Of a stretch of DNA of 62,236 nt, positions 33,717 through 50,738 are shown piece after piece. Both the position numbers and the translations under genes were made by a program. Numbering within the stretch: position 1 is the stretch's first letter; every line of letters starts with the position of its first letter. The DNA lies in contig NZ_JAJSDQ010000010.1 in NCBI RefSeq assembly GCF_021272345.1, positions 1 to 62,236 on the forward strand, in the 5' to 3' direction. Source of the stretch: Ornithinimicrobium sediminis (GTDB taxonomy: Bacteria > Actinomycetota > Actinomycetes > Actinomycetales > Dermatophilaceae). The notes beneath the pieces are model-generated. The model made no database searches and was not told the origin of the DNA. It saw only the letters and a program-made list of their open reading frames with translations.

Positions 33717-34097
33717 GGGGCACCTTCCGTACCCAGGACATCCCATGCCACCCCGAGCTTAGGGCGGCGTCCCATGGGTCGAACCTCGACTTCAGTCCAG
33801 GTAGTCGCGAACTAGGATCTGCGCTGTGCTGCCGTGCTTGACAAACGCGCAGTTCATGAGCGCTGTGCACTGAAATATCCTGGAGTGAGATCGGGAGCTT
33901 GGGCCGAACGAGCGGATGACGCAGACGCTCTCCGTCAGGTCCTCCAAACCGCGTGGCCACTCCCCCCAGGTCCCCCTCCACTCCCTCCTGCCCTGTCCTA
34001 CAAGGGTCAAGAGGGAGTGGGGACTCATCGTCGTGCTGAAGCCGCGCCTCCCACAGCGATTGCCGCCGCCCAGCGGCCTAGCGCGTATCATGCGTTG
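33717..34097. other. Intergenic region, no convincing gene
   Basis: About 380 bases of lower-GC sequence. A 99-codon frame on the minus strand (33792-34091) ends with a protein-like stretch (MNCAFVKHGSTAQILVRDY) but its first two thirds is not protein-like, so it may be a decayed fragment. Nothing else was identified. Confidence 0.4.
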
Positions 34098-34457
34098 GTG
34101 ACCGATGCCACGGAGTGGGCAATGAACCCGACTGGCCTCCAGATGGCCAGCTCCTACGACGGGGATTACACCGCGGTGGTTTCTGCAGACAATCTTGACC
34201 TCGGCGGTTGGTACCTGATTGCGGTCCTCCCCGACGGCGATGTCGTGGACGAGGCCCCCTGGGAGCGGGAGGCACGGTGGGCCTCATGGACGGTGTCGAT
34301 GATTGAACCCGCCTGGACTGCTGACGCGGAGTTCCGCGATCGACGGGCCTGGACGTACGCCTTGCGCTCACCTGATGGTGAGACCTTCCCCCTCGTCACC
34401 GCCCTCCGGCGGGGTGAAGCAGGCCAGCAGCCGGGGAGCGCCAGTGGCACTCTTTGA
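34098..34457 (+). CDS. Hypothetical protein
   Basis: 119 residues from a GTG at 34098; the upstream open frame looks non-coding. The sequence is rich in Trp and Asp (LDLGGWYLIAVLPDGDVVDE, EARWASWTVSMIEPAWTADAEF) and ends in a short polar tail. No motif recognised. It overlaps the next gene by 14 bases, so the pair is probably one transcript. Codon use is less GC-biased than the chromosome to the left, fitting an accessory gene. Confidence 0.55.
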   Translation: MTDATEWAMNPTGLQMASSYDGDYTAVVSADNLDLGGWYLIAVLPDGDVVDEAPWEREARWASWTVSMIEPAWTADAEFRDRRAWTYALRSPDGETFPLVTALRRGEAGQQPGSASGTL

Positions 34458-35214
34458 TACATCAGTACCATCTGCGACCGTCGTCTCGACGGGACGAGAA
34501 CTGCTGAACACCGCGGCCCTGGGCAGCGAAGAGGACCTTGAAGACATGCTCCTCAATGCCATGGACATCCCTGAAGGAGCGGGACGAATTTTTCTTGAGG
34601 AAGATGGCTGCTTCATCTGTGTCGCCAACAACCTGGGCCTTGGCCTGGAGTACCCTTTCACCCTCGCCGAGTTCCGAGAACACCTAGATCAGTGGCGGGC
34701 GATCTACGACCGTCAACTCGGTCTGCTCCACCTTCCTCAACCCGACGACGACTCTGACGGTCCCGACGCGAGCAGCGCGCTTGCGCGTTACCTTGGACTC
34801 GATCACTCAGAGTTTGTGGGCGCCGCAGGAATCAATTGGCGGCCAGCCGATCCCCGCGACTACTGCGCCTCCCCAGACACCGGGCCAGTTTTCGGGAACG
34901 ACGCCCACACCTTTGTTAGTGGAGACCCACAGCAACTGCTGATGGCCCTGAACGAGGACACCGTAACGGTTGCAGAGGTTCGCGAGCACCCCTCACGCGG
35001 CCTGCCACCATGGAAGGAGTGTCAACTGCGAGGCTCGCTCAGCCTTCACTCCAGCAACCTCGCTGCGGAACTCCAAGAGCTGGTCGAGAGAACCTGGCTA
35101 CGACGGCAACGAACCCTTGGTACCTGCCGTAGCTGCCGCACCCTGCAGGACATTGCAGTCGGCCAAATGGACTGCCGGGCCTGCGTGGACTCGAAGCTGG
35201 GCATCTTGTACTGA
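34444..35214 (+). CDS. Hypothetical protein with C-terminal zinc ribbon
   Basis: 256 residues. The middle carries acidic stretches and no known fold; the C-terminus has a CRSCRTLQDI...MDCRAC arrangement (CxxC plus CxxC) that should bind zinc. GTG at 34444 within the end of the previous gene is the most upstream start that avoids antisense-like sequence; a later start is possible. Function unknown. Confidence 0.6.
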   Translation: MALFDTSVPSATVVSTGRELLNTAALGSEEDLEDMLLNAMDIPEGAGRIFLEEDGCFICVANNLGLGLEYPFTLAEFREHLDQWRAIYDRQLGLLHLPQPDDDSDGPDASSALARYLGLDHSEFVGAAGINWRPADPRDYCASPDTGPVFGNDAHTFVSGDPQQLLMALNEDTVTVAEVREHPSRGLPPWKECQLRGSLSLHSSNLAAELQELVERTWLRRQRTLGTCRSCRTLQDIAVGQMDCRACVDSKLGILY

Positions 35215-35289
35215 TCCGGACTCACCGTCGGTTGGCGGTCTTCCAGCACAAGACTTCTTGCCACCAGCGATGAACCGATCGGAGACCCC

Positions 35290-35480
35290 AACCGTGAGAG
35301 AGGTAGGGGCAAGCGGTGGGGAGGCACGGCGCTCGGCGTCCTCCAGTCGGTCAACACCTACGACCACCACCACTCGATCGTCGGTGGAGCCACCCGCCCC
35401 GAACGCAGCGTGCTACGCACCGTCAAAGGCGACTTCGACGCCACAGACCGGTCCGCCCTGTTGACACTCTGCAGAGGCTC
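35290..35480 (+). pseudogene. DUF932 phage/plasmid-related protein, C-terminal remnant
   Basis: One frame reads WGGTALGVLQSVNTYDHHHS and continues ...RPERSVLRTVKGDFDATDRSALLTL, the C-terminal signature of the DUF932/phage-plasmid-like family (about 300 residues or more when whole). No start codon or N-terminal domain precedes it, so it is a broken remnant. The rest of the gap 35215-35729 holds nothing further that I recognise. It marks past phage or plasmid DNA. Confidence 0.55.
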
Positions 35481-35729
35481 CAGGCGGCCTGACCGACCCT
35501 ATCTCTCCTGCTGCTACCGGTCCCGAGGGGCGGCAGGAGAGGCCGAGCCCCCGGACCGTCGGGGTCCTGCGCCTTCGTACTTGGACACTTCATACCTGCC
35601 CGGGTGTGTCGAGGGCGGATAACAGGTCTGACCCCGACGTGTCTTCCTGTTGAGGACCGAGTCCCTTGGCACATGGCCACCGATTTTTTATGGGTTGCGT
35701 GCGTTGTCCAGACGCGCCACACTCGCTGT

Positions 35730-37211
35730 ATGGGGAACTGGGTCGAGAGGGTCCGTGCACGTAACTGGACGCCGATAGTATTTTGGCTCATCGGAATCTC
35801 GATCGTGACGGTGGTCTGGGCCACCCAACGAGGTCAATCGGATTCTTTTCCCGCGCCGTTGCTGCAGGCAGTCGGTCTACTTCTAACAGCGCTCGTATTC
35901 GTGCTGAGCCTCGCCCAGAGCCGACTGACCCGCACGGTCGATTCATTGGCGAACGCCGCGCGGCGAAGAGAGGAAGCGCTGCTCAAGTCTTATGCCGAAC
36001 ACCCCGAGGCAGTAACGACCCTTGATCTATGGGGACACGCTGGTCGAATTAAAGCAGCACTCATGGAGACGGGGGCCGTAACAAACGTCGAGGCGAGACG
36101 CATCCTGCGGGAGGCCCGCAGGCCGGTGAGCAATTGGGGGGAAGCCGGCAAGTTTGAACGAGGATTCTCGCTCATGCAAATCGATCGTGAACTCACCGCT
36201 AGCGAGGAACGAGTCACGCCGTCACCACGTCGACAGCGGACCTTGGAAAAGGAGAAGCAACGCCTCCTACGAGAGGACGCAGAGGCTACGACCGCTGCTA
36301 ACCAAGCCGGTGTTACCACCTCTGGTTACAGAAGACTAACTGGGCGCGCAAGAGTAGCCGAACTCTCCGTGCGATCCCTCCTCAGAATGGCTCGGGGATT
36401 CTTGTTAGTCATGATTGGGTTGATCGCGATTGGTGCGATATACGCTGGATGGTCCTGGGACCAGTTGCCATCCGTGGAAGTTTGGGCAGCACTTGTTCTG
36501 CTGACGCTCGCTGGGGTCTACCTGGGTATAGTCCGCCGAGAGGTAGACCTGGAGATTCGGGCGCTCGCCATGGCACTGCGCGATTCATCTCTGTTAGCTT
36601 TACTCGATGCCGAGTATGCTTTGCTGTTTTATTACGAAGCCCGCCGCGAGCGTGACACCGAGAGAACTCTCGGGATTAGACACTACGTCCTATCGCTCTT
36701 AGACCAGGCTGACGAAAGCAGCCCTGGTCTGCCTTGGGTGTCCAGCGTGCGTGGACGACTTCACCTGCCGGAAGCTATCGAGTCAGCCTCTTCTCTACAG
36801 TCCTGGAGACAGTACTCCCGTTCGGACAGCAGTGAGGGGGAAGAGCGTAGACTGATGGAGGACCTGCGACCCGCCTCGCGATACCTGCGGTACGCCGCCG
36901 CTCGGTCTGATGATCCCATCGCCGCTTTGGCTTATGCCCGGTGCCTGCATCTGCAAGCGGTCGTTCTCGCTGAAAACTTGGCCCCCTCCGCATTGGACGT
37001 GCTGTCTGGGGACCCAGACCAACTACATGATGCCGCAGACGACCTGGCCGCAGGTGCAATTCCCCTACTTCGCGATATCCCAATCTTCGGCCGAGAAGCA
37101 CTATGGGGCGACCCGTACTGGACCTGGATTCGCCAGTCACCGCTCCTTTGGCCCGACGACCCCCGGTTGCGCGGCGCATTGGCCCACGTGGTTCCCCTCA
37201 GCGACCCATGA
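35730..37211 (+). CDS. Membrane protein of unknown function
   Basis: 493 residues with two N-terminal helices (about 14-30 and 42-60), a long charged cytoplasmic region with probable coiled-coil (LANAARRREEALLKSYAEH), a second helix pair around residues 225-275 (GFLLVMIGLIAIGAIYAGW; WAALVLLTLAGVYLGIV) and a C-terminal alpha-helical domain of about 200 residues resembling tandem repeats. No family was recognised. Markedly lower GC and many A/T-ending codons point to transfer. ATG at 35730 is chosen; ATG at 35673 is an alternative. Its position beside a restriction cluster hints at, but does not show, a defence role. Confidence 0.7.
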   Translation: MGNWVERVRARNWTPIVFWLIGISIVTVVWATQRGQSDSFPAPLLQAVGLLLTALVFVLSLAQSRLTRTVDSLANAARRREEALLKSYAEHPEAVTTLDLWGHAGRIKAALMETGAVTNVEARRILREARRPVSNWGEAGKFERGFSLMQIDRELTASEERVTPSPRRQRTLEKEKQRLLREDAEATTAANQAGVTTSGYRRLTGRARVAELSVRSLLRMARGFLLVMIGLIAIGAIYAGWSWDQLPSVEVWAALVLLTLAGVYLGIVRREVDLEIRALAMALRDSSLLALLDAEYALLFYYEARRERDTERTLGIRHYVLSLLDQADESSPGLPWVSSVRGRLHLPEAIESASSLQSWRQYSRSDSSEGEERRLMEDLRPASRYLRYAAARSDDPIAALAYARCLHLQAVVLAENLAPSALDVLSGDPDQLHDAADDLAAGAIPLLRDIPIFGREALWGDPYWTWIRQSPLLWPDDPRLRGALAHVVPLSDP

Positions 37212-37221
37212 AACAACAATG

Positions 37222-37263
37222 AGCGGTCTACCCACCACACTCGTGAGGATCGTACAGACCGCT
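37222..37263. terminator. Weak hairpin between convergent genes
   Basis: Arms AGCGGTCT and AGACCGCT (8 bp) enclose a 26-base loop in the 190-base gap between the membrane-protein gene and the methyltransferase gene. The long loop makes it a weak candidate terminator. Confidence 0.25.
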
Positions 37264-37402
37264 CCGTCGAGTGATCGCATACCTAATCCGATGCCCGCTG
37301 CCTGTGGTCTCTTCGATGTGAGTTGGCTGCCTTGCTCGCCGGACCATCGGCACGCTAGCGAGCGTCGGTGACATTCTGGGTTCGAGGGCCCGAAGCAAGC
37401 AA

Positions 37403-40138
37403 TCAGCGGCGCGCGAGTTTTTGGTATCTAGCGAAGAGAACCTCCTGTCTCTCCAGCTCCGTGGGCGCTTCAGACTTCAGGCCAAACAGTCTGTCCACCT
37501 GAACATCGAGATTCGTGTGCGCTTCGAGTAGATTTCGCGTCATGTAGTCCGGGTGGTACATCTTCGCTAGAGAGGCGTGAGGATCCCATTCACGAGCTTG
37601 CAGGATTTCTGCGCCCGCTCCAATGATGCGCTCCCTGTTGCCCTCATCAGTGCAAGGAAGGGGGAAAGTGTTCCAGGTCAGTAACTTGTTGAACCGCAGG
37701 TCCGACTTTAGTCGCCCTCCCACCGTGCGCTGCCACGTGATGAACATGCTTGACGAGATGATGGCGAACATGAAGCCGTCAGCATCCGGCGTAATGAAGT
37801 TGGCGTTACTTGCGATCGTCCCCGGGTCGAAGCGTGCTGCCAGGAAGTATGGCCGAGACTCCGAGACATGTGCAGGGATGCATAAGTAGGATGTGTTGGG
37901 TTGGGCGATCTGTCTGAACAGATGAGGTGTTGCCGCGGCAGCCCTGGTTGACGCTGCCTTGCTGGCGGCGCGGAACGCTTCGACTCCCCAGATGCGTTCC
38001 TTGAGGAGTGTACTCCGGTCAGCGTCGCCGTCCTTGAGGTCGGTCAGCCACAGGCAGTAGCGGTCTTCAGTGTGGATGAGTTCGCGCGCTCCCACGTACT
38101 TCCGTATGTACTTGGCGGCCACGGCATCGGACATCGCGTCCTCGTAATCCTCCCTCTCGACAACGAGCCACCCTCCGTCTGTGGGCTTGTTCCCGTAGGA
38201 GACCTCCCCTAGTTGAGGGTTCAACGGCTTGGTGCTGGGCTGGACGATCACAGTAGGACCGTCGGTGAGGTAGGGCGTGATGTTCGCCACGGTCTGCTCG
38301 AGCGGGGCGGAACCGTTTCCTTGGTACTCGAACAGCCTCACGTTACCGGGCTGTCGCCAGAACCCGACGATGACGCAGTGCACCGCAGCCTTCCCCACGG
38401 CCTCGGATGTCCACGGGAAGGTTCGGTGGGCGAGTTTGATTCGCCAACCCCTATCCAAGGTAGGTTGGAAGAGTGGAGCAACCGCTTCGCCCCGGGTGAT
38501 GGAACTCGTGCTGACGAATGCCCATCTGCCATCCACAGCGCCGAAGTACTGCACGGCCTTCGCGTACCAACCGGTGACGTAGTCCAAGGTTCCGTGGTAG
38601 CGGCTTCCCCAGACCAACTGTAGGTCTGCAGTCTGTTTTGCTGAGCGTAGGGAGATGCCGAGGAACGGAGGGTTGCCGGCCACAATGGCTTCGTGTGTGG
38701 GTGGACAGATCTGAGCCCAGTCCGAGCGGAGGGCGTTGCCGACGACGATGGTGGCTTGCTCCTGGATTGGTAGACGGTTGGGTGCGTAGCCGAGTGAGGC
38801 GGTGAGCTTGAGGTCGCACTGTCGGTCGACGAGGAACATGGCTGTTTCGGCGATGCGGGCTGGCCATTCGTCGATCTCGATGCCGTAGAAGTGGTCGAGG
38901 GTGACCTTGAGACCGACATTGGCTAGGAGCATGGGGTTGTCGCCCGTAATTTCTTGCAGGCGTTCCATGATCGCCAGTTCGAGGTCTCGAAGTTCTCGGT
39001 AGGCGACGATGATGAAGTTGCCGCAGCCGCAGGCGGGGTCCATGTAGCGGATGCGGCCGAGTTTCTCGCGGAGCTTGCGGAGTCGGTCGGCTTCGTACCT
39101 GCCCAGGGATCGGACGTGCTCGAACTCGGCCCGCAACTCGTCAAGGAAGAGCGGGTTGAGGGTCTTGAGGATGTTTTCTTCTGAGGTGTAGTGCTCTCCG
39201 AGTTGACGCCGGGTCTCGGCGTCGCGGACGGACTGGAACATGGACCCGAAGATGGCAGGGCTGATGCTGGCCCAGTCACGGTCGCACGCCTGCAACACGG
39301 CGGTACGGAACTCGGCGTTGAGGGCCGGCAAGGTGACGCGCTCGGTGAAGATCCGGCCGTTGACGTAAGGGAAGCCGTTGAACTCCGATCGAGAGACGCC
39401 ACGCTGGTCGTCGGGAGTGTCGAGGTGGTCGAACAGGTCGGTGAGCTGAGCCCCCACGTCGGAGCCATCGGGTTTAGCAAAGTCGCGGATGAGGTCGCGG
39501 AAGAGGTTGGGGTCCCACATGTCGGTGTCGTCTCCGAACATGAGGAAGAGGATCCGGGCGAGTGTGACCGAGATCTCGTGATCGCGGACGGCACGAGGTG
39601 TGGCGGCTGGGTAGGCCTTCTCCATGGCTGCGTAGAGACGAGCCATGAGCTTGGAGGCGTGCTTGGTCTCGTTGTGCGCCTCGACGTCGAAGGCCTGGCG
39701 GACCTTGGCGAGGACGGCGTTGCTGTCGAGCGTCAAGTCGAACGGCAAGCGGATGACGTCGAGTTTCTCGGCGAACCGGGGGTCGGTGTCACCGGTGCGG
39801 TGTCGGTGCCGGCTCAGGCGGGTGATGGTGGTGTTGCCGACGGAACGGCGGACGGGCCAGCGCCACACCTGCTCGCTGTCGTCGTGAAAGATCAGGATTC
39901 TGTCCGTGCTGTTCTTGGCCAGGTGCTGGTCTAGGGCGGCCTCGAGCCTTGAGTCGGGCTTCTCGTCCGCCAACCACACTCGTAGGCCCCGGTACGAGGA
40001 GACATTGGTCGCAGTGACCATGCGTCCGTCGTGCTCAAGGGTGACCGGTGGGTGGTCGGGCTTGGACCAGTTCAGGTCGTGCACGAACAGTCTCTGGTAG
40101 TCGCGCCGCTCGGCGCGCTGGATGAGCGGGTGGGTCAT
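37403..40138 (-). CDS. Gamma-class DNA adenine methyltransferase of large restriction type
   Basis: 911 residues, the length of MmeI/type IIL and type IIG enzymes. In order: an N-terminal 180-residue domain (SSYRGLRVWLADEK, ILIFHDDSEQVWRWP), a helical region, GEHYTSEENILKTL (about 315-328, motif X), DPACGCGNF (367-375, motif I; the usual serine is cysteine), GIEIDEWPARIAE, GNPPF (488-492, motif IV) and a C-terminal target-recognition part from about 600. It should methylate adenine in a specific sequence. I do not see a clear PD-ExK nuclease motif in the N-terminal domain, so cutting may be done by the neighbour. Its ATG overlaps the helicase stop (ATGA). Confidence 0.88.
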   Translation of the reverse strand: MTHPLIQRAERRDYQRLFVHDLNWSKPDHPPVTLEHDGRMVTATNVSSYRGLRVWLADEKPDSRLEAALDQHLAKNSTDRILIFHDDSEQVWRWPVRRSVGNTTITRLSRHRHRTGDTDPRFAEKLDVIRLPFDLTLDSNAVLAKVRQAFDVEAHNETKHASKLMARLYAAMEKAYPAATPRAVRDHEISVTLARILFLMFGDDTDMWDPNLFRDLIRDFAKPDGSDVGAQLTDLFDHLDTPDDQRGVSRSEFNGFPYVNGRIFTERVTLPALNAEFRTAVLQACDRDWASISPAIFGSMFQSVRDAETRRQLGEHYTSEENILKTLNPLFLDELRAEFEHVRSLGRYEADRLRKLREKLGRIRYMDPACGCGNFIIVAYRELRDLELAIMERLQEITGDNPMLLANVGLKVTLDHFYGIEIDEWPARIAETAMFLVDRQCDLKLTASLGYAPNRLPIQEQATIVVGNALRSDWAQICPPTHEAIVAGNPPFLGISLRSAKQTADLQLVWGSRYHGTLDYVTGWYAKAVQYFGAVDGRWAFVSTSSITRGEAVAPLFQPTLDRGWRIKLAHRTFPWTSEAVGKAAVHCVIVGFWRQPGNVRLFEYQGNGSAPLEQTVANITPYLTDGPTVIVQPSTKPLNPQLGEVSYGNKPTDGGWLVVEREDYEDAMSDAVAAKYIRKYVGARELIHTEDRYCLWLTDLKDGDADRSTLLKERIWGVEAFRAASKAASTRAAAATPHLFRQIAQPNTSYLCIPAHVSESRPYFLAARFDPGTIASNANFITPDADGFMFAIISSSMFITWQRTVGGRLKSDLRFNKLLTWNTFPLPCTDEGNRERIIGAGAEILQAREWDPHASLAKMYHPDYMTRNLLEAHTNLDVQVDRLFGLKSEAPTELERQEVLFARYQKLARR

Positions 40139-43100
40139 GAGTCGAGAACCCCCAGTGAGCAGACGATTTTGATGGTGTCGGTGTCGGTCGCGCCGATGAC
40201 GAGCCGGTCCTCGCCGTGGAGCTGGTTGAGCAGGTCGGCTAGGTCGTCTGGGCTGTACTTGTTGCGGCGTGCCTGGCTCAACCGCATGGTGGCGTGCTCA
40301 GTGAGTGGTCGGGCGTGCAGCGCGTCGAGAGCTTCGGAGGCCTTCTCTCCGAATACGGTTCCGCCGAGGCGTTGCCATGCCCACTTGCGCACGCCTTTGA
40401 GGTTTCCGGCGGCCACGGTCTCGGTCTTCAACGGTCCCCGGACCAGAGCAGCTTCGCGGTCAAAGTGATCGGCTCGCTGGAGGGCTGTCGGGGTGGTGGG
40501 CTCGGCGCGGAAGATCCGAAGGGCTTCCAGGGGGGTGAGGATCCGCTCGTGCGTTTGATGGTCGGTGATCGTTGCGGTCGCGAAGGCGTCCACACCTGAG
40601 CCGGTGGAGATGTAGCAGGTCACGCCGGCGTGGCTCTCGTCCATGTACTGCTCACGTGTGGAGTGGATCATGTCCTGCATCCGGAGCACTTTTGCGGCGG
40701 TAGCGGGGTGCTTGTCTTGCGCGTTGGACCACACGAGCCAGGCTTCGCTGACCGAGTCGACCTCGGCCTCGTCGTCGCTGTCATCGTCACTGACCCGGCC
40801 CTTGTACAGGTCGTCGAGGATCTTGACCTCACGGTCGCCGCCGAAGAACTTCTCATCGGAGCCGAACGCCTCGGCGGAGGCACCGAGCCGTTCCTTGATC
40901 CGTTGCCGCAGCTGGATCTGTTCCTCGATCTTCTCGTGCGTGATCAGGTACAGGTGGACGGTGTCGGAGCGCTGCCCGATGCGGTCCACGCGGCCGGCGC
41001 GCTGGATGATGCGGATGATCGCCCAGGGCAGGTCGTAGTTGACGATGATGTGGCTGTCCTGCAGGTTCTGACCCTCGGACAACACGTCGGTGGCTACGAG
41101 CACTTCGATGGGGTTGTCCACCTCGACCGGGGTGTCGGTGGATTCGGATGGCAACCGGTTGGAGCGGGGTGAGAACCGTCGTGCCACGTCTGCGGGGTCG
41201 TCGGTGTCACCGGTGGCCAGCCCGACGCGGGGGATCCCAGCGCCGGTGAGGGCGTCGGCGACGTACTGGGCGGTGTCGCTGTACTCGGTGAAGACGAGCA
41301 CTTTGTCCCCGGGGTGGTCGTTCGTGAGCAGGTCGACCAGCTTGTCGATCTTGGAGTCGCGGGTGGGGTCCCAGTCACCGAACCGGGTGAGGAGGTAGGT
41401 GATGGTCTCGTTGTCCTTGAGCAGGTCCTTTCGCAAGGTGGGTTGGAAGACGGTCGAGTTGACCCACTTGGTCCTGGCGGGCAGGGAGGCCACGAGGTTC
41501 TTGTAGCGGGTCTCGACGCTGCCGTGCAGGCTGCCGTCGGTCTCGATGTCCTCGTCGCTCACGGCGATCTGTTTGTCGGAAAAGCTGCCCAGCGGGATGG
41601 GCAGCTGGTTGTCGATCGCGTGGATGAACAGCTCGTTACGTGACCGCTGCCGTTGCAGCGACAGGATGAAGGAGTATCCGGAGGAGGACAGTCGTTTGAA
41701 CAGCCCGATCCGGACGAAACCGCTGACGTTGCCGCGTCCGGACCGGATGTCATCCAGGTTCTTGATGTCCGTCTCGGTGTGCTCGGCCTTGCGGTCGTCG
41801 TAGTCAGCGAGCCGGTACCGGGGCAGGATCAGGTCACGGACTGCGTCCAGAGTCGTGTCGTCCTCCATAAGCGCGGCAGGGTCGTCGGGAGCGAAGTCCA
41901 GGCTCAGCGGCGTGGAGACGCGGGTGGGGAAGTGGAACTTTTGCCCGTTGGCGAACTCCAGGTACTCCCGCTCTACCGGAGTCCCGTCCGGGCCCGTCAC
42001 CAGTTCTTTCTTGGCCGTGCGCTTGATGAAGGAGCGCGTGCGGCGGACGAGGTGGTCGCTCATGAGCCTCCGCCAGTCCTCAGGTTCCTCGGAGCGGCGG
42101 AACGCGGTGAGCGTGTTGATCTTGCCGTCGACCTTGGCGACCAGGTTGGGGTCGTTGCTCATGGCCTCGGTGGGCACGATGCCCAGGTCCTGGTCCTCGT
42201 CGATGTACAGGCCGATCTGGCTGGCGACATCGGTGAATGCGAGGTTGTACGGGGTGGCAGTCAGCAACAGGACTTTGGAGCTGTTCGCGCGGATGTACTG
42301 GTGGATCGATTCGTAGGCGATGGTGGAATTGTTCCGCAGGTTGTGCGACTCGTCGCAGATGACCAGGTTGAACCGTTTGAGCTCGGGCAGGACCTTGTCA
42401 GCCATGGAGTAAGGCACGACCCTTCCGTTGATGTCGTACTCCTCGACGTGCCTCTCCCACATGGTCTGCAAGTTCTTCGGGCACAGCACGAGGGTGGAGT
42501 AGTCCTCGGCCGCCTGCAGCATCAACGAAGTGGCAACGGCCGTGAGCGTCTTGCCGAGACCGACGACGTCGCCGAGCATGGTGCCGCCCCGGCGCACGAT
42601 CCGCCGAGACAAGGTGCGCACGGCGCTCTCCTGGTAGTCCAGGAGCAGGTCGCTCATCGACTTCGGCAGGACGTACCCCATGCCGTCACGCGCGTCCTGC
42701 GACAACGAGTGGCAGACCTTGAGGTAGACCTCGAACGGGGTGGGCTGCACCTCGTCGGCCCAGGAGCCGGCGATCAGGTCAACGATCTCAGCGGAGATAT
42801 CCAGGGAGAACCTGTCGTTCCATCGGTCCTCGAACCAGGTCGCAAGCTTGGTCGTGGCGTCGGAGTCCTGAACGTCGATGTTGAGCTCGAGATTGCGGTG
42901 TAGGCCAGCGCCGGTGAGGTTTGACGAACCGACGTAGGCCCACCGGGACGCATGCTTCTTTCCGGGGGCGTGGAAGAGGTACGTCTTGCCGTGCAGCGGC
43001 GTCTCGGTGAACACCTTCATCGCCACCAACCCTTCCGCCAGCTGACGCTTGAGCGTCTGCAGGGTCGCCTGCCCCTCGGTGGTAGCCAAACCCCGCATCA

Positions 43101-43440
43101 GCTGCGTGCGCAGGTGGGCCACCAGCTGATCGCGGCGAGCGAAGGCCCGCTCCCGGTCGTGGATATCGGAGCCGTACTCGGGCGGCTGTACGTGATCCTG
43201 CAACAACTCCAGCAACTGCCGGGAGTCCGACGGAGCTACCATCCCGACCAACACACGAGCGGTCGGGCGCCCTCCAGGCTCGATTGCGGGCTTGGCATCG
43301 ACGATGTCGGCCATGCTCGACCAACCACGCAGGTCGATATACCCAGTAGCCACGTCCACAGTATCGAAGTCGCGCAGCGACTCACGCAAAGCCGAACCGA
43401 GGCGCGTGTCATCGGTGAGGTTGTCAAAGATGTTAGGCAC
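40135..43440 (-). CDS. HKD-nuclease/SNF2-type helicase fusion
   Basis: 1101 residues. The N-terminal phospholipase-D-like domain carries one HxK...GSSN motif (HGKTYLFHAPGKK, residues 150-162; YVGSSNLTGAG, 169-179), so it may act as a dimeric nuclease. Then an SF2/SNF2 engine: Walker A DVVGLGKTLTAVA (about 291-303), DESH box in VICDESHNLRN, TATPYN, and the C-terminal lobe with VATDVLSEGQNLQ and QRAGRVDRIGQ. A long C-terminal region is of unknown fold. GTG at 43438-43440. It is translationally coupled to the methyltransferase, suggesting one system in which this protein translocates on and cuts unmodified DNA. Confidence 0.9.
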   Translation of the reverse strand: MPNIFDNLTDDTRLGSALRESLRDFDTVDVATGYIDLRGWSSMADIVDAKPAIEPGGRPTARVLVGMVAPSDSRQLLELLQDHVQPPEYGSDIHDRERAFARRDQLVAHLRTQLMRGLATTEGQATLQTLKRQLAEGLVAMKVFTETPLHGKTYLFHAPGKKHASRWAYVGSSNLTGAGLHRNLELNIDVQDSDATTKLATWFEDRWNDRFSLDISAEIVDLIAGSWADEVQPTPFEVYLKVCHSLSQDARDGMGYVLPKSMSDLLLDYQESAVRTLSRRIVRRGGTMLGDVVGLGKTLTAVATSLMLQAAEDYSTLVLCPKNLQTMWERHVEEYDINGRVVPYSMADKVLPELKRFNLVICDESHNLRNNSTIAYESIHQYIRANSSKVLLLTATPYNLAFTDVASQIGLYIDEDQDLGIVPTEAMSNDPNLVAKVDGKINTLTAFRRSEEPEDWRRLMSDHLVRRTRSFIKRTAKKELVTGPDGTPVEREYLEFANGQKFHFPTRVSTPLSLDFAPDDPAALMEDDTTLDAVRDLILPRYRLADYDDRKAEHTETDIKNLDDIRSGRGNVSGFVRIGLFKRLSSSGYSFILSLQRQRSRNELFIHAIDNQLPIPLGSFSDKQIAVSDEDIETDGSLHGSVETRYKNLVASLPARTKWVNSTVFQPTLRKDLLKDNETITYLLTRFGDWDPTRDSKIDKLVDLLTNDHPGDKVLVFTEYSDTAQYVADALTGAGIPRVGLATGDTDDPADVARRFSPRSNRLPSESTDTPVEVDNPIEVLVATDVLSEGQNLQDSHIIVNYDLPWAIIRIIQRAGRVDRIGQRSDTVHLYLITHEKIEEQIQLRQRIKERLGASAEAFGSDEKFFGGDREVKILDDLYKGRVSDDDSDDEAEVDSVSEAWLVWSNAQDKHPATAAKVLRMQDMIHSTREQYMDESHAGVTCYISTGSGVDAFATATITDHQTHERILTPLEALRIFRAEPTTPTALQRADHFDREAALVRGPLKTETVAAGNLKGVRKWAWQRLGGTVFGEKASEALDALHARPLTEHATMRLSQARRNKYSPDDLADLLNQLHGEDRLVIGATDTDTIKIVCSLGVLDS

Positions 43441-43860
43441 TACTGAGTCCCCTTGGTCGACATGTCGAACGGCTCAGGCGCGGAGCGCAACTGGGGCGTG
43501 TCAGGTCCGAGTCGGGAGTCACCCGCATGCAGGTTTCTCCCTCTTCCGCAGACGTCGACCCCACGAACGGCATCCTGCCTCATCGCCGCGGTCGTGCCGA
43601 CCCGACCCCCCTGACGTGACTGCGACATCGCGTGCTCGCCGACGCGTCGCTCGCCCCCAAGCACGAGGGATCGGACTCCCGATCCGATACGCATGTTCCT
43701 GACCTGCCCATCACCACCTCGGTCTCACGCGGTGACGGATCGTCTAACCCCACGGAACGTCCTTCGCGGACCAGCTCGTGAGGCTCGTCCTGTCCTGCGG
43801 CGGATCCGCGTGACCGCACATTCTCGAGGGGCTCGGCGTGAGTCGCCCCGGGGCCGTTGA
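43441..43860. other. Spacer between mcrC and helicase gene
   Basis: 420 bases between two co-directional genes of the defence cluster. Short open frames here lack protein-like composition. It presumably holds the promoter of the helicase-methyltransferase pair. It includes a small palindrome GGATCGG...CCGATCC near 43670. No RNA gene recognised. Confidence 0.4.
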
Positions 43861-44937
43861 TCACTGAGTCAGGGCGGTCTGCTTGTCCTCCAGCCAGGTG
43901 ACGATCTCTTCAAGCTGAGCGCGAAGCTGGTCCCAGGGCCGCCCGAGGTCGAGGGTTCGAGCGCCGATGCGATTTCCCTGTATGACGACGTCGAGGTCGG
44001 GCTGGTCGGGTGCGTTGGTGCGCGCGTAGAGGAGAAGCCCGCTGACGGATCCGTCGCGGTGGACGTCGGCGTTCTTCGTGTAAGCGAGCATCTGGTAGAG
44101 GTGCTCTGAGTGCACGGTAGTTTTGCTCCCCCACTTGCTGACCTGCATCGATTCGCTGTAGTACTTCGCGTCAACGATAAGGGTGCGCTGCTCTGACCGG
44201 AGCGTGACGTCGGTGCGCATTGCTGGGAGTTGTTCGACCCCGCGTGTCTTCGTGCCATCGAGGTCCCAAGCGACGGTGGGCGCACCCGGTGACAACTCCG
44301 GGTGGTGGAAGGCGTAGTACTCCCGAATGAACCGCTCGTACAGCCGGTTCATCTGCTCATCCGACACCCACGAGGTGAGTTGTGTGGCTCCGGGGTTCTC
44401 GGTGGGCAGGAGCCCGCGGACGACCAGTTCACAGACACCGAGCAGCAACCGGTAGGTAGCGTTGGCGCGGTGGTAGGTGAGTGCGTCCCAACGGATCGAG
44501 GTCGGCGCGATCAGGGTCACGGCGTCCAGGTAGGGCAATAGCCGGCGAAGTGCCGCCTTGCGCGGTGTACCCACGTCGCCCCGGCGGATCAGGAGCACGA
44601 TGACCGACTTCAGGGCCCGGTTGTGCGGCGTGTCCGCCTCGTACTCGTCGAACTCGCACACCAGCCGCCCCCGCGTCGTGGAGCGGGTGGCGACGGTGCG
44701 GGTGATGTTGATGCGACCACGGACGGTGGCGAGCTCGTCGCGGCGGTCGAGGTAGTCGCGGTGAAGGCCGCGCTTGACCTGTGCGCCGACGCCTCGTGCA
44801 AGGATCTCTGCGAGCAGGTCGTGGAGGTGGTCGAACCGCTGGCCTTCGATCCGATCCTTGCCCTCGGAGCGGATCGCACGGAACGCGTACGCCAGCATCA
44901 CGTAGACGTTCGAGATGGCGATCGTCCGGTCGATCAT
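43861..44937 (-). CDS. mcrC: McrC-family restriction nuclease subunit
   Basis: 358 residues of the McrC/LlaJI type. An N-terminal helical domain (NVYVMLAYAFRAIRSEGKDRI) and a middle INITRTVATRSTTRGRLVCEFDEYEADTPHNRALK segment precede the PD-(D/E)xK nuclease core MRTDVTLRSEQ...LIVDAKYYSES (about 245-272). McrC partners the McrB GTPase to cut DNA at modified cytosine sites. ATG at 44935-44937 overlaps the mcrB stop (ATGA). Confidence 0.9.
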   Translation of the reverse strand: MIDRTIAISNVYVMLAYAFRAIRSEGKDRIEGQRFDHLHDLLAEILARGVGAQVKRGLHRDYLDRRDELATVRGRINITRTVATRSTTRGRLVCEFDEYEADTPHNRALKSVIVLLIRRGDVGTPRKAALRRLLPYLDAVTLIAPTSIRWDALTYHRANATYRLLLGVCELVVRGLLPTENPGATQLTSWVSDEQMNRLYERFIREYYAFHHPELSPGAPTVAWDLDGTKTRGVEQLPAMRTDVTLRSEQRTLIVDAKYYSESMQVSKWGSKTTVHSEHLYQMLAYTKNADVHRDGSVSGLLLYARTNAPDQPDLDVVIQGNRIGARTLDLGRPWDQLRAQLEEIVTWLEDKQTALTQ

Positions 44938-47192
44938 GCGACCGCGGCCCTCAGCCTGTCCGCCCACTCCTTGGCCTTGGCTAGCTCGTCGAACCAGTAC
45001 TCATCGATCAGCGGGATGAGTTCGTCCTCGACGACCGAGTAGAGCCAGGCATCGTCTGCGTCGGTGCCCGTGGGGCGGGACAGGAAGCTGTGCCCTATGG
45101 CGAAGCCCTGGCCGAGCGCAGGGTCCTCGGCGATCGCTGCGTTGAGCTCGACGACAACCTCGACGAGGCGATCGAGAGTGGGGCTGCCGGCGTCCTGCTG
45201 CCAGCGACCGAACCCTGCTGAGTCGAAGCCGGGGGGCATCTCGAAGAAGCCGAAACGTCGGCGCAGCGCGTAGTCAAGCACGGCGAGGCTGCGGTCGGCG
45301 GTGTTCATCATGCCGATGATGTGGACGTTCGCCGGGACGGAAAAGGTCTCGTTCTTATAGAGCAGGCGCAGGTGGTGTCCGCGCTTGTCAGCCTCGATGA
45401 GCATGAGCAGCTCGCCGAAGATCTTGGAGATGTTCCCGCGGTTGATCTCGTCGATGATGAAGAAGTACGGCCGGTCGTCGTCGGCGGCGCGGGCAGCTTC
45501 GCAGAACCGATAGAACGGGCCTTCGGCCAGCGTGAATCCGCCTGCCTCAGTGGGCCGGTAGCCCATCATGAAGTCCTCGTAGCTGTAGCTCTGGTGGAAC
45601 TGGACCACCTGCACCCGGGCTGGGTCCTTCGCGCCCATGACCGAGTACGCCAAGCGCTTCGCGGCGTACGTCTTCCCCACTCCGGGCGGGCCCGCAAGGA
45701 TGACGTTCTTCTTGCGGGCCAGCAGGGCGCGCAGCCGTTCGTAGCGCTCCTCAGACAGGTACACCTCCTTCAGAAACGCAGCCTTGTCGTAGGCCGGAGG
45801 AGGCGTTGAGGGCTCGGGCAGCGGTGGGACCTCTTCGCCAGTCACGAGCCTCTCAAGGTCCTCGACGTAGTCGCGGAAGGTCGTGACGTCAGTCAGAGTC
45901 TTGATGGCAGCGGATCCGGGGTGCTCCCAAGAACCCGTGTGAGTCCAGTTCACCGAGCGGACGTGGCGGTAGGACTCGCGCCCCGGCTCGAACCGTGAGT
46001 CGGACGTGACCTCGCCGCGCCCGACGATCTCTCGCCGCCCGCGCTTGGCGAAGACGATGTCGCCGACGGCGATCTCGTTCTGGAACTGCCAGACGGCAAG
46101 CACGATGTTCGTCTTCGACCCACCGGTGCCGTCCGGGTCTAGGGCCTGGCGGACCGCTTCCCGGCTCGGGTAGGTGGCAAGGTCGTCGAGCTCGTCCCAG
46201 CCGATGGCCATGATGCCGCTTGATGAGAACTCGTCCCACTCCGAGGCCTGCGGACCGGGGGCGTAGAGCCAGTAGTGCCGTGGCCGGGGCTCGGCTATGT
46301 CTGCGGACTCAGCATCCGAGTCGCTCTCGCCTGGCGAGTTGTTCCAGAGCTCGTTCACGCCAGGAGACCAGAAGTGGAACGGTCCCTCGATCTCGCTGGC
46401 CAAGGCGGCGCGGATCGCGAGCAGGTCACGGTCTATGGCTGCAGGGTCTTCACCGGTCGCCCCGCCGATCCGATCGGCGAGTCCATCGCGGACCTTCTTC
46501 TTCATCGACGCCGACGAGATCGGCTCGAACACCTCCGGCCAGGCGAGGAACTGCAGCACGTTCCGCATGTCGGAGCGGTCGTCGCCAGAGGTGAGCATGA
46601 CGTGCTGCAGCTCCCACGGGTCGTTGCGCGCCTTCTCGCGCTCGGCGAGCGGTAGGCCGGTCCAGTAGCGCACGAAGGTGGAGGCCCAGATGACGTGCCG
46701 CCAGAGCGCGCCGTGGTACCAGGTCCCCGGCTCCAAACCTGCGGTCCCAGGCGGGCGTCCCAGCCACGTGGACATCGGCTCGGGGATCGTCACGGGTGGG
46801 TCGAGGTGCGCCAGAACCCGGTCGACGTGGGCGCGGCGGGTCTCAGGCTTGGCTGAATGCAGCGGGTGCTCCCGGAGAAACACGAGTTCGGCCGCGAGCA
46901 GTACCACCTCGCGGGGTGCGCCTTCGAGTTGACGGTCAAGTTTGTCCCATTGGCCCTGAGCCTTGCCGAGGATCGGGTTGTCCCCGATCCTCGCGCGGAG
47001 GTCCTCCGCTGTCTCAGCCGTCCACATCATCGTCCCGGGATCGATCACGGACCGACCGTCTCCGAGCATGTGCTCGAGCACTTCTGCGGCGTCCCGCGCT
47101 ATTGCCATGTCGGCGGCCGGCCGCGAGGCTGCGACAGCAGCGAGAACGTCCTCACCATGTTCGTTGGTCACGCTTGCATTCTTGCCGACCAT
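44934..47192 (-). CDS. mcrB: McrB-like GTPase with EVE-type reader domain
   Basis: About 752 residues. The N-terminal 300 residues are helical and uncharacterised (ASTFVRYWTGLPLAEREKAR). Next comes an EVE/PUA-like domain (about 306-425: RHYWLYAPGPQASEWDEF, IGWDELDDLATYPSRE, GDIVFAKRGRREIVGRGEV), a fold that binds modified cytosines. The AAA+ McrB motor follows: Walker A GPPGVGKTY (about 501), Walker B FFIIDEINRGNISKIFGEL, and the McrB signature MMNTADRSLAVLDYALRRRF. It should recognise modified DNA and drive McrC. Start uncertain: ATG at 47192 or GTG at 47171; the longer frame to 47270 looks less likely. First gene of the cluster. Confidence 0.9.
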   Translation of the reverse strand: MVGKNASVTNEHGEDVLAAVAASRPAADMAIARDAAEVLEHMLGDGRSVIDPGTMMWTAETAEDLRARIGDNPILGKAQGQWDKLDRQLEGAPREVVLLAAELVFLREHPLHSAKPETRRAHVDRVLAHLDPPVTIPEPMSTWLGRPPGTAGLEPGTWYHGALWRHVIWASTFVRYWTGLPLAEREKARNDPWELQHVMLTSGDDRSDMRNVLQFLAWPEVFEPISSASMKKKVRDGLADRIGGATGEDPAAIDRDLLAIRAALASEIEGPFHFWSPGVNELWNNSPGESDSDAESADIAEPRPRHYWLYAPGPQASEWDEFSSSGIMAIGWDELDDLATYPSREAVRQALDPDGTGGSKTNIVLAVWQFQNEIAVGDIVFAKRGRREIVGRGEVTSDSRFEPGRESYRHVRSVNWTHTGSWEHPGSAAIKTLTDVTTFRDYVEDLERLVTGEEVPPLPEPSTPPPAYDKAAFLKEVYLSEERYERLRALLARKKNVILAGPPGVGKTYAAKRLAYSVMGAKDPARVQVVQFHQSYSYEDFMMGYRPTEAGGFTLAEGPFYRFCEAARAADDDRPYFFIIDEINRGNISKIFGELLMLIEADKRGHHLRLLYKNETFSVPANVHIIGMMNTADRSLAVLDYALRRRFGFFEMPPGFDSAGFGRWQQDAGSPTLDRLVEVVVELNAAIAEDPALGQGFAIGHSFLSRPTGTDADDAWLYSVVEDELIPLIDEYWFDELAKAKEWADRLRAAVA

Positions 47193-47455
47193 CGCCAGCT
47201 TCGGCTGCCAGAACCTCTCTTTCCTGCTGCACTGGTACCTGGCCATCCGCTGCCGAGGCGTCAACCACATGCCCCTCGGCTCGGAATCCCTCTCCGACTA
47301 CCGGGCCTCGGAGCAGCGACGACACCGGCCGGTCTCACACCGGTCCAACGCAGCGAGTCGTCGCCGCCCGGCGAGGAGACGGCCGGGTTGGCCCGCTGGT
47401 GCGGCGTGCTCCAAGTGGCCAACGGCATCGTTGGTGGGCACGATTGGGAGGTGTG

Positions 47456-47463
47456 GCTTTACG
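47456..47463. repeat. Target site duplication, left copy (GCTTTACG)
   Basis: GCTTTACG is found directly outside the left inverted repeat and again at 48943-48950 outside the right one. Eight bases is the normal ISL3 duplication length. The copies are identical, so the insertion is recent. Confidence 0.95.
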
Positions 47464-48942
47464 GGCTCTTCGTCTTTGAGGGTGGGGTCATAGGTTCAGG
47501 CCTCCGCCGATGAGGAGCACGCGGAGGCGGTAGTTCTCGAAGTTGGTCAGGCCTCGGGCGATGCGGCGGTGGAGCTCGATGAGTCCGTTGATGGCCTCGG
47601 TGCCGCCGTTGGTGGCGCCGGTGTCGAAGTAGGCCAGGAACGCCTCCTTCCAGGTGCGTAGGGTCCGCCCGAGCCGGGCGATCTCGGGGATCGGGCAGGT
47701 CGGGAACGACGCGACGATCCGCTCGGCGATCTTCTTTCCCTCGGGCTTGTCCGTGGTCTTGTACGCCGAGCGGAGCAGCTGGGCGGCCTGCCAGGTCAGG
47801 TCGACCTCGTCGTGGGCCTCGTGGGCAGCGAACGCCCGCTCGATCCGCCCGCGCTGCTTGTCGGTGAGGTTCTCCTGCCCGGCGCGCAGGATGTTCTGGA
47901 TGCCGTACAGCGGGTCGTCTTTGCGACCGCGGTGTCCGGTGGTGTCCTGCTGCACCCGGCGGCGGACCTCGTCGACGCACTTGGTGCCCAGCGCCACGAC
48001 GTGGAAGGCGTCCAGGACCGCGGTCGCGTCAGCGAGCTCGTCGTCGATCGCGGACTTGTACCCCTGGAACGGATCCAACGTGGCCACGTCCACGCCGGCG
48101 GTGAACTCGCTCCCGCGTGCCTCGAGCCAGTCGGCGTAGGCAGCCTTGGTCCTGCCCTGGACCAGGTCGAGCAACCGGGCTCTGACCTGCCCGTGCTCAT
48201 CGACGGTGAGGTCGACCATGCCGGTCAGCTCTTTCGGTCCACGGCCCCCGTCCTCGGGCGGCTTGGTGGACACGTGGTGCCACACGTGCTCATCCACGCC
48301 CAGGGTGGTCACGCCGGCGAAGCGGGTCTCGTCATCGGCTGCGGTGGTCAGGATCGGCTTGATCGCCTCCCACACCGTGCGCCAGCGGACCCCGAGCTGG
48401 CGGGCCACGCCCTGCACGCTGGCGTGCTCACGGCGGATCTGAGTGATCGCCCACCTGGCCGCCCGGGAGGTGAGCAGCCCGCGAGGCCGGGCCAGGTCGG
48501 GGTCCTGCTCGGTGAACGTCACCACCTCGCAGAGGTCCTCCCGGCACCGGTACCGGCGCTTGCGCCACAGCAGCACGACCGGGGTGCTGAAACAGGGCGC
48601 GTCGACCAGGCGCACCGTCCGCCGGCCGAGCGACTCTGCCACCACCCCGCAGGCCGGGCACCCGGTGGGGACCATCGCGGACTCAACCGTGACGGTCAAC
48701 AGGTCCACGCCACGATCGACGGTGGTCACGTGCACGCCCTCCAGCCCAAGGAAGAGGTCGCAGTTGTCGCAGTACGCACCGCCCGCGCACACAGCGGGGC
48801 AGCACGACGTAGGGTCAGACACGTCGAGGTCCTTGAGATCGGGAGAGGTAGAAGTCCCCTGATCCTCGGGGACCTCGACCCCATCACCGGCTCAAGTCCG
48901 CGCTGCGGCGCGTCGCCACCCCACCCTCAAAGACGAAGAGCC
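47464..48942 (-). mobile_element. ISL3-family insertion sequence, complete
   Basis: 1479 bp bounded by perfect 25-bp inverted repeats (47464-47488 and 48918-48942; each begins GGCTCTTCGTCTTTGAGG inwards) and flanked by the identical 8-bp duplication GCTTTACG. It contains one transposase gene. It is inserted within the thioesterase remnant. All parts needed for transposition appear intact. Confidence 0.96.
47488..48822 (-). CDS. ISL3-family transposase
   Basis: 444 residues. An N-terminal zinc-finger region (CCPAVCAGGAYCDNC, GCPACG, RCREDLC) is followed by an HTH (SVQGVARQLGVRWRTVWEAI) and the DDE domain: first D in TLGVDEHVWHHV, second D in VLDAFHVVALGTK, and the final E in GATNGGTEAINGLI. 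GTG at 48820-48822. Its stop codon falls at the inner edge of the left inverted repeat. Full length, no frameshift, so probably active. Confidence 0.95.
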   Translation of the reverse strand: MSDPTSCCPAVCAGGAYCDNCDLFLGLEGVHVTTVDRGVDLLTVTVESAMVPTGCPACGVVAESLGRRTVRLVDAPCFSTPVVLLWRKRRYRCREDLCEVVTFTEQDPDLARPRGLLTSRAARWAITQIRREHASVQGVARQLGVRWRTVWEAIKPILTTAADDETRFAGVTTLGVDEHVWHHVSTKPPEDGGRGPKELTGMVDLTVDEHGQVRARLLDLVQGRTKAAYADWLEARGSEFTAGVDVATLDPFQGYKSAIDDELADATAVLDAFHVVALGTKCVDEVRRRVQQDTTGHRGRKDDPLYGIQNILRAGQENLTDKQRGRIERAFAAHEAHDEVDLTWQAAQLLRSAYKTTDKPEGKKIAERIVASFPTCPIPEIARLGRTLRTWKEAFLAYFDTGATNGGTEAINGLIELHRRIARGLTNFENYRLRVLLIGGGLNL

Positions 48943-49167
48943 GCTTTACGCCTACGTCGACCTCACGCTGCACTTGCACCGCCAGCCCGAGGGGCCGTGG
49001 GTCGGGGCGAACAGCCAGGTCTCGTGGCGCCTGACCCGTATCGGCCAGTCCTCCTCGCACATGCATGACATACACGGCCAGGTCGGGTCGGTGGTGTAGT
49101 CGCTGACGCTGCGGCCCCGGACCTGACGCCACCCAGATGGATGTGTGGCGGCGGTTCGCCCGGACTT

Positions 49168-50079
49168 TCAGCCGCGCGCCCTGGTGATCAGCTTCAGTCC
49201 AACCACTCTCACCGTGCTCTTGAACGGGCCGAGCTTCGCGTTGACGTCGTCCAGCACCTGCAGTTGGGGCAGCGGCCTCAGGACTTCGTCCCCGAGCGTT
49301 GAGACCCGACCGTCCTGGAAGTGCACAGGCACCTTCTTGGTTTCCGTGTAACAGGCGTTCGCCGTGCCCGCCGCGCCCAGGCCCCCGATGATCACCTCAT
49401 ACGGGTCCGTCGCCCCCCAGTCATCGACCGACTGGGCGTAGTTGTGCACTTCGAGCGCGCACACGGCGAGCGCACGGGAGCCAACTTGACTCGTGAGCGA
49501 TCGCACGTATGCCGGCCCCAGCCGTGCGTTAACCGCGTCCAGAAGCGCCCCCTGGGCCTCCCAGGCCAGGGTCGTTTCGAGGTCCAGCGCCCACGCGACG
49601 TCCTCCGGCGGGCGGTGGATACGCATCGAGGCACCAGGTGAGAGGAAGACGCTGTCAACGAGCATGACCGACAGCGCCGCCTCCTTGGCGGCGCCCGCAC
49701 CCAGTGCGTCGTCGGCGAGGACGCGCTCGCTGACGTCCGACCAGCTCACGCCCTGCACGACCCATAGCGCGTCCGTCCGGTTACGGATCCAGGTCTCGCT
49801 CGCTCCGGACTCGAGACGCAGGCAAACGTCCCACGAGCTGATGTAGGGCATCTCCTCGGGAATGCTGGTTGTGACGACAAGGGGGTGTCCCCCTACGAAC
49901 GCCGCGCAGGCCGCCGGGTCCGTCGCGTGAGACACGGGCGGATCGTCCGGGACCTGGGGGGGCGTGTCCGGGGATTCGACTGGCGGTGGACTCCAGGTGG
50001 ACTCCTCAGGCACCGGATTCGAGGTGCAGCCGTTCAGCCCGACCGCTGACGCAATCAGGAGGATCACCCATCGGCCCAT
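49168..50079 (-). CDS. Predicted lipoprotein, unknown function
   Basis: 303 residues. Signal peptide with lipobox LNGC at about residue 18, then a proline/serine-rich linker (to about 55), then a folded domain with five further cysteines (CAAF, VCLRLESG, VCALEVHNY, ANACYTETKK) that may form disulphides outside the cell. No family recognised. ATG at 50077-50079. The composition is that of the local chromosome. Nothing links it to the restriction genes. Confidence 0.75.
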   Translation of the reverse strand: MGRWVILLIASAVGLNGCTSNPVPEESTWSPPPVESPDTPPQVPDDPPVSHATDPAACAAFVGGHPLVVTTSIPEEMPYISSWDVCLRLESGASETWIRNRTDALWVVQGVSWSDVSERVLADDALGAGAAKEAALSVMLVDSVFLSPGASMRIHRPPEDVAWALDLETTLAWEAQGALLDAVNARLGPAYVRSLTSQVGSRALAVCALEVHNYAQSVDDWGATDPYEVIIGGLGAAGTANACYTETKKVPVHFQDGRVSTLGDEVLRPLPQLQVLDDVNAKLGPFKSTVRVVGLKLITRARG

Positions 50080-50200
50080 GGTTCAGTGTGGACCTCGACG
50101 CGCCCGAGGGGAAGGACCCGTGGCCAGGATGGCTCGGCGGGTCTCACGGAGTCCGGGTATGGGGTGGCCGTGCCTCTTCCGAGCACCAGTCCAGGTGAGA

Positions 50201-50641
50201 TCATGCGGCACCGTGAACGTTTCTCAGGTGAGCTTGCTGATGGCTCGGTCGAGGGCCGCGGACTGACTGGTGACCAGGGACGACGCGGCTGGTCCTCAGT
50301 GCCTCTAGCCTGTCGGTGCTCGGGTCGTTCATGGGCCCTGCCACACTGGGGTCCAGCACCTGGAACCGGTGCAGGTTGTCGTGCAGAGCACGGCTGGCCA
50401 ACAGTTCACCCGCCCAGACGCTGGTCGCCATCCCGGCCAGGTCCATGGCCACGCCCAGCCATGAGCCGTTCCCGTCCAGCACCGAGTCTCCGGGAGCGAC
50501 TCCGGTGCCGAGCGAGACCATGACGATGGACTCGGCGGTGGCGCCGCCCTCGAGCGCGAGGGCTTCGGAGAGCGCGACTCCTCCAGGGTTGTTCGCCCAG
50601 ACGCCGCCGTCGACGAATTCCCGGTCCTCGCCCGCCCGTCA
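50201..50641 (-). pseudogene. Patatin-like phospholipase, 3' fragment
   Basis: The reading frame opens just after an in-frame TGA with GEDREFVDGGVWANNPGGVA, carrying the catalytic aspartate motif DGG and the following NP of patatin phospholipases. It continues with MVSLGTGVAPGDS, another family mark. The N-terminal half with the GxSxG serine is missing, so the fragment cannot be active. It abuts the end of the DUF5655 gene. Patatin lipases include anti-phage effectors (CapV), but this piece is too short to say which group it came from. Confidence 0.7.
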
Positions 50642-50738
50642 ATCGGCCTCTGGCGGGATGGCTGACGGGCGGTGGGTGCTGGACTGGCCGCTGGTGATGA
50701 CTGTGGAGCCCAATGGAATGCCCTGGTTCGCCCCAGAC

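Follow-up and report, generated by a model that had tools for sequence, protein, structure and literature searches.

Side-by-side McrBC and helicase-methyltransferase cassettes in Ornithinimicrobium sediminis: one defence system or two?

When several restriction genes stand in line on one strand, does their proximity mean that they work together? This question is raised by contig NZ_JAJSDQ010000010.1 of Ornithinimicrobium sediminis (assembly GCF_021272345.1), of which we analyzed a stretch of 62,236 nucleotides (the window). On a single strand of it, mcrB and mcrC are followed, after a gap of 420 bases, by a gene for an SNF2 helicase with an HKD nuclease domain (HEL) and a gene for a DNA methyltransferase (MT) (Table 1). 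The initial annotation took all four for one restriction cluster. Its gene identities (mcrB with EVE domain and GTPase, mcrC, HKD/SNF2 helicase, DNA methyltransferase) are confirmed by domain matches, and its coupling of HEL to MT holds as well, but the cluster does not: the best explanation is that McrBC and HEL-MT are two independent defence cassettes side by side, whose adjacency looks accidental.

Two pairs that occur apart

The comparison loci fetched for this work carry L-numbers. An order sample of 396 genomes contained HEL relatives in nine genomes besides that of the window (20 kb fetched around eight of these loci, 8 kb around one) and 60 other McrB relatives at E ≤ 1e-40, all of whose neighbourhoods were fetched, up to 20 kb each. 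Further HEL loci came from genome contigs of many phyla, where the best 80 of at least 540 confirmed loci were used, and all counts out of 80 rest on these. Contig ends cut the McrB neighbourhoods L061, L144, L182 and L191 and the HEL locus L020.

Within the fetched stretches, McrBC was present in none of the nine order-sample HEL loci and McrC in none of the 80 contig loci, among which a single 25-bit match to the McrB profile was seen (L132). Likewise, no HEL of family strength lay in any of the 60 McrB neighbourhoods; seven of them hold SNF2 helicases that score 31 to 102 bits against the HEL profile, whereas all 80 HEL loci reach at least 300. Plasmid records matched HEL in 25 cases and McrB in 11 (E ≤ 1e-60), with no accession common to both lists. 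The DNA similarity of the window to the fetched loci also falls into two blocks, HEL-MT at 37644-43508 (best likeness 84.5%, to L071) and McrBC at 43865-47138 (83%, to L051), and none of 206 blastn matches lay in or across the 356-base junction between them, nor beyond the blocks within 33000-52500. The initial annotation had itself held that pairs mostly apart in other genomes would speak against one system, and apart is how they occur in these neighbourhood surveys. Because of this separation and of the distinct similarity blocks, we rejected a single four-gene system.

A functional system in which McrBC and HEL-MT are co-expressed and mutually dependent is therefore improbable, even though the genes share a strand, only 420 bases lie between the pairs, and a scan of the junction found neither promoter nor terminator. 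The idea gains some credit from operons that unite McrBC with a different helicase-methyltransferase cassette, seen in L058 and L156 and, with McrBC on the same strand, in 10 of 20 ARMADA-like stretches (see below); those operons, however, use another SNF2 helicase family and a methyltransferase of ~1,340 residues, and the reciprocal absences, the separate blocks and the plasmid lists all count against it. Genes of a defence island can share a strand and lie 420 bases apart without belonging to a single system.

Table 1. Features of the locus, in window coordinates (TRD, target-recognition domain; ORF, open reading frame).
Feature	Coordinates	Strand	Remarks
mcrB: helical N-terminal region, EVE/YTH-fold domain, AAA+ GTPase	44934..47270	-	true start uncertain: 47192 or further inside
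EVE/YTH-fold domain of McrB, residues 326-480	45831..46295	-	
mcrC	43861..44937	-	ATG start likely at 44937, ATGA overlap with mcrB; PF10117 E 9e-37; NF007277 371 bits, above cut-off of 338
Junction of two DNA-similarity blocks	43509..43864		no likeness to any fetched locus
Probable relic: final 22 codons of a small ORF	43443..43508	-	tblastn 59% over 22 residues, E 5e-4
HEL: N-terminal HKD (phospholipase-D-type) nuclease domain and SNF2-family helicase, 1101 aa	40135..43440	-	
HKD region of HEL, residues 125-207 (HxK, GSSN, ELN)	42820..43068	-	PLDc_2 match
MT: MmeI-family DNA methyltransferase, 911 aa	37403..40138	-	
N-terminal domain of MT, residues 1-165	39644..40138	-	occupies the position of MmeI's N-terminal domain
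TRD of MT, residues 626-828	37655..38263	-	exchanged relative to nearest kin; PF20466 E 4e-62
ISL3-family transposase	47488..48822	-	directly upstream of mcrB; context, outside both units; PF01610 E 2e-51

A helicase and a methyltransferase as a probable restriction-modification unit

HEL-MT is a genuine two-gene unit found in many phyla. MT adjoins HEL in all nine order-sample loci. Of the 80 contig loci, 73 have a DNA methyltransferase no farther than 4.5 kb from HEL, and in the other seven the contig stops 1,110 bases or less past HEL. The two genes overlap by 4 bases in the window (40135-40138), as they do in 25 of 30 loci when the start codon nearest the HEL stop is taken as the MT start. 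The 73 partners comprise 21 MmeI-like enzymes, encoded downstream, and 52 that better fit a second family (44 downstream and 8 upstream); all 29 scanned members of the latter match Eco57I and, more weakly, the MmeI methyltransferase model.

We consider it probable that HEL-MT is a two-gene ATP-dependent restriction-modification unit, separate from McrBC, in which MT reads and methylates DNA and HEL cuts what is unmethylated. MT, with its MmeI-type build and TRD, would read an asymmetric site and methylate adenine there, a base specificity assigned by family only. Its N-terminal domain would not act as a nuclease; at unmethylated sites HEL would instead join the MT-DNA complex, possibly via that domain, translocate by its SNF2 motor and cut by its HKD site, and methylation by MT would protect sites from this cleavage.

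The nuclease and motor signatures of HEL are conserved. Across 90 aligned HELs (two of them duplicates), the histidine of the HKD site is kept in all 90, the lysine in 88 with arginine in the other two, and GSSN with the following glutamate in 88, with gaps in two; the helicase motifs are near invariant, but for MLGDVVGL and TDVLSEGQ this is partly by construction, because both served as search patterns for the loci. PADLOC has no strong family for HEL, its best model being 'HKD+Snf2' C3a139 at 119 bits. Protection that needs no cleavage, as has been proposed for BREX- or DISARM-like systems, with a helicase that blocks or remodels phage DNA, is unlikely given that at least 88 of the 90 HELs keep the HKD residues and that the genome's one MZB (DrmB-type) protein sits on another contig; its appeal lies in the scores of HEL against the DrmD and BrxHI models and of MT against the DrmMI and, weakly, PglX models. 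Still less does the pairing suit a modification-dependent (type IV) HEL of the SauUSI kind with MT as an unrelated passenger: SauUSI likewise joins a phospholipase-D-type nuclease to a helicase, yet a methyltransferase adjoining HEL in 73 of 80 loci, and the correlation of HEL with MT described below, make this reading scarcely credible.

MT carries the methyltransferase (PF20473, E 4e-82) and TRD of the MmeI type, and it resembles the type IIL/IIG enzyme MmeI (PDB 5hr4) over residues 184-909 only (E 6e-167). MmeI cuts by itself through its own N-terminal domain, whereas MT is without the MmeI N-terminal model and has an HKD-helicase gene alongside. PADLOC files MT as type IIG (PDLC03598, 894 bits), with a match that begins at residue 152. 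The MmeI_N model (PF20464) had no match in MT at E ≤ 0.01, although it matches the MmeI-type enzymes of L144 and L165, and a profile comparison of the MT domain with the MmeI_N domains of these two gave no alignment (probability about 1%). Against PDB sequences the domain had five matches, all at E ≥ 0.15 and none a restriction enzyme, and Foldseek returned nothing at E ≤ 0.001; a weak fold likeness to DrdV was seen. In 32 N-terminal domains from both methyltransferase families, F18, W24, G51, P61 and W92 are invariant and L17, L22, I83, F84, Q90, W94 and F150 nearly so, a set with no acidic residue and no lysine. On this sequence pattern the domain is probably inert as a nuclease. D70 and R80, invariant in the MT alignment, weigh slightly against that reading and in favour of a self-sufficient type IIG/IIL MT with its own nuclease, to which HEL would be an accessory; with PF20464 unmatched, a PADLOC match starting only at residue 152, no profile alignment to true MmeI_N domains and no acidic residue or lysine in the conserved set, we regard such an enzyme as quite unlikely.

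Identities and trees were compared for 24 of 31 MTs, omitting L066, L076, L077, L078 and L081 (truncated or split) and L089 and L133 (copies of L020 and L015). Over the 276 pairs, HEL identity correlates with that of MT residues 1-540 (Spearman 0.90) and hardly with that of the TRD (0.20). Between the window and L071, identity is 89% in HEL, 84% in MT 1-540 and 45% in the TRD; between the window and L012 it is 78%, 73% and 75%. In quick trees the window falls with L071, L062 and L063 for HEL and for MT 1-480, but beside L012 for the TRD (support 99). A TRD tree that keeps the HEL group together is rejected by the approximately unbiased test (p 0.005, for a group picked after the identities had been seen). 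Close relatives have thus traded the TRD, whereas HEL and the remainder of MT stayed together. This would be expected of a TRD that determines the target in methylation and in restriction alike, with no specificity contributed by HEL.

More tentatively, these pairs might represent an unnamed, widespread class of ATP-dependent restriction-modification systems, in which a type IIG/IIL-like methyltransferase cedes cutting to a partner, an HKD-SNF2 translocase bound to the conserved N-terminal domain of the methyltransferase. The HEL family pairs with both MmeI-like and Eco57I-like methyltransferases, whose N-terminal domains align, and specificity would change by TRD swap alone. If so, proteins fitting PADLOC PDLC03598 (such as MT) and PDLC03628 (the L121 partner, 1045 bits), filed as type IIG, would be the recognition and modification half of an ATP-dependent system of two genes and would not be expected to cut alone. 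Their annotation would change, clones that methylate without cutting could be explained, and the target of the system would depend on a single exchangeable domain.

Relation to published systems

The nearest published arrangement that we met is that of type-2 BREX-related systems, in which a fusion of HKD endoDNase and Swi2/Snf2 helicase accompanies an N6 methyltransferase and which are read as restriction-modification-like (PMC12839542). HEL-MT has in common with them the HKD domain and SNF2 helicase beside a predicted adenine methyltransferase. The core of those systems is a DUF499 ATPase, and 98% of taxa also have a DUF3780 protein (PMC12839542). Membership was rejected for HEL-MT since DUF499 (PF04465) had no match in the genome of the window, with Thermotoga maritima positive as a control. 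Matches to DUF3780 (PF12635) were absent from the genome and from all 14 controls alike. DISARM class I (DrmD, DrmMI) likewise combines an SNF2 helicase with a large adenine methyltransferase. DrmD is not known to carry an HKD domain, and DISARM needs DrmA, DrmB and DrmC. DISARM membership was rejected as well, as HEL scores 123 bits against DISARM_DrmD (NF038317; cut-off 610) and no MZB/DUF1998 (DrmB) protein stands beside HEL-MT, the only PF09369 match of the genome being on contig C7 and the window on C1. CglI and NgoAVII also couple an endonuclease to a helicase-like ATPase but keep nuclease and motor as separate proteins (PMC5737866, PMC4267653); CglI acts at an asymmetric site with NTP hydrolysis (PMC5737866).

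For the four genes together, the closest parallel is ARMADA type I with McrBC, where an SNF2 helicase, a methyltransferase and McrBC form a single operon (PMC12458937, PMC11090510). It differs by its YprA-like gene, another SNF2 family and a methyltransferase of ~1,340 residues, and it recurs with McrBC, which the window set does not. A DISARM-like cassette, later named ARMADA, is described as frequently associated with McrBC (PMC11090510, PMC12458937). Two of our 60 McrB neighbourhoods, L058 and L156, hold such an operon, in which an MZB-domain gene accompanies overlapping genes for an SNF2 helicase, the ~1,340-residue methyltransferase, McrB and McrC. The short contig L182 has pieces of the methyltransferase with McrBC. 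A search for the ARMADA-like methyltransferase in 394 genomes of the class was positive in 29; 20 of the 36 listed places were fetched, and in 10 of these McrBC shares the strand of the methyltransferase. ARMADA-type-I-like operons with same-strand McrBC are thus found in L058, L156, L182 (parts only), L205-L207, L209, L210, L217, L218 and L221-L223. The association is recurrent in these data, and the four-gene set of the window is unlike it.

The initial annotation knew of no named system with this exact set, and we met none either; the combination of McrBC with a DISARM-like helicase-methyltransferase cassette, on the other hand, is already in print (PMC12458937, PMC11090510) and was found here. 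For HEL-MT as a stand-alone two-gene system, the titles and abstract openings listed in searches of open-licence literature yielded no description and no name, subscription papers and REBASE lying outside this search.

Other methyltransferases also neighbour McrB. L177 has a helicase-methyltransferase pair on the strand opposite McrBC, and MmeI-like pieces or a whole MmeI-type enzyme occur in L144, L147 and L165. In L144 (genome G226), pieces of an MmeI-type enzyme (11732-12868 and 4451-4885) flank McrBC on both sides on the same strand, the upstream piece with the MmeI N-terminal model.

The McrBC cassette; variants and probable mobility of the pair

The first cassette is best read as a modification-dependent (type IV) restriction unit of EVE/YTH-McrB and McrC. 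The McrBC family cuts modified DNA. McrB of the window has the AAA+ GTPase domain (AAA_5, E 9e-24) and a modified-base reader domain of the EVE/YTH fold, and an McrC of the family adjoins it; against NF008457, McrB scores 270 bits, under the equivalog cut-off of 637, and its EVE region had no match among PDB sequences. EVE-McrB is described as the commonest EVE defence fusion, present in nearly 300 genera (PMC7641849), and the window copy does not differ from it in kind, although it has a long helical N-terminal region. A YTH domain on an archaeal McrB is said to bind N6-methyladenine in DNA (PMC7641849). Because YTH/EVE folds include such readers, the window McrB might, by analogy, read the adenine-methyl mark of MT, in which case McrBC and HEL-MT could come into conflict. 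For that reason the suggestion in the initial annotation that the MT mark would have to be invisible to McrB is sensible, and its other proposal, of two arms directed at opposite kinds of DNA, may also hold. A conflict of this type, between a mobile restriction-modification system and a methylation-dependent nuclease, is already in print (PMC8989522), and an EVE/YTH-type McrB beside HEL-MT offers a natural test of whether methylating and methyl-reading defences clash.

Over 34-52 kb the GC content of the window, about 0.72 before, declines to 0.59-0.69, and further right it stays at 0.65-0.70; together with the ISL3 transposase abutting mcrB, this is in keeping with acquired DNA. Ordinary metabolic genes flank the region 34000-52000, with IMP dehydrogenase and a VIT-family gene on the left and arginase and a permease on the right. 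Two overlapping minus-strand ORFs in different frames, 50739-51530 and 51439-51909, one with DUF5655 (a PADLOC PDC-S18 candidate) and the other with an HSDR_N-like domain, look like parts of a single defence candidate gene.

It is probable that HEL-MT moves with an element linked to a recombinase, a remnant of which survives in the window. Three observations point this way: the relic at 43443-43508 resembles the final part of the small ORF immediately ahead of HEL in L071, and the DNA match to L071 runs to 43508; upstream ORFs recur before HEL in L062, L063, L064, L071, L073 and L074, and among three large ones that were scanned, two weakly match a phage-integrase N-terminal model; and Gordonia plasmid pPAE01 (L143) has the order site-specific integrase, two hypothetical genes, small gene, HEL and MT. 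No HEL was found in phage records at E ≤ 1e-40. In these six loci and L143, HEL-MT stands directly behind tandem recombinase-like genes, mostly with a small ORF, and looks like the cargo of a mobile element.

Further genes accompany some HEL loci. Flanking ORFs were chosen longest first, a greedy rule that puts genes in the wrong place where DNA is GC-rich, and clusters in fewer than 16 loci were identified in part. One family is shared by 16 of the 80 loci, where it lies for the most part 2-5 ORFs downstream (L092, L095, L097, L100, L102, L106, L114, L116, L121, L124, L125, L127, L128, L131, L138 and L141), none of which has an MmeI-like partner. Five of six scanned members match DprA (DNA_processg_A; one under the model cut-off), and that of L095 matches only DUF3293. 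This family is a possible third component of units with an Eco57I-like methyltransferase. Directly behind the methyltransferase in L100 (16836-17846) and L102 (16838-17848), and seen only there, is a gene that joins MTaX1 (methylase-associated X1) to an HNH nuclease.

In Synechocystis PCC 6803, plasmid pSYSX (L142) carries a HEL relative (36%), after which come a hypothetical gene, one of the VapC family and one for a DNA methyltransferase, to which the excerpts of PMC6560206 and PMC6604393 tie no methylation motif. This model cyanobacterium offers a tractable place for study of the pair. Methyltransferase sequence stands upstream of HEL in L083, L085, L086, L087 and L091; the scanned upstream ORF matches only the back part of the methyltransferase model in L083, L085 and L086, and in L091 the enzyme is split into two ORFs of 376 and 706 aa that match the front and back of one model.

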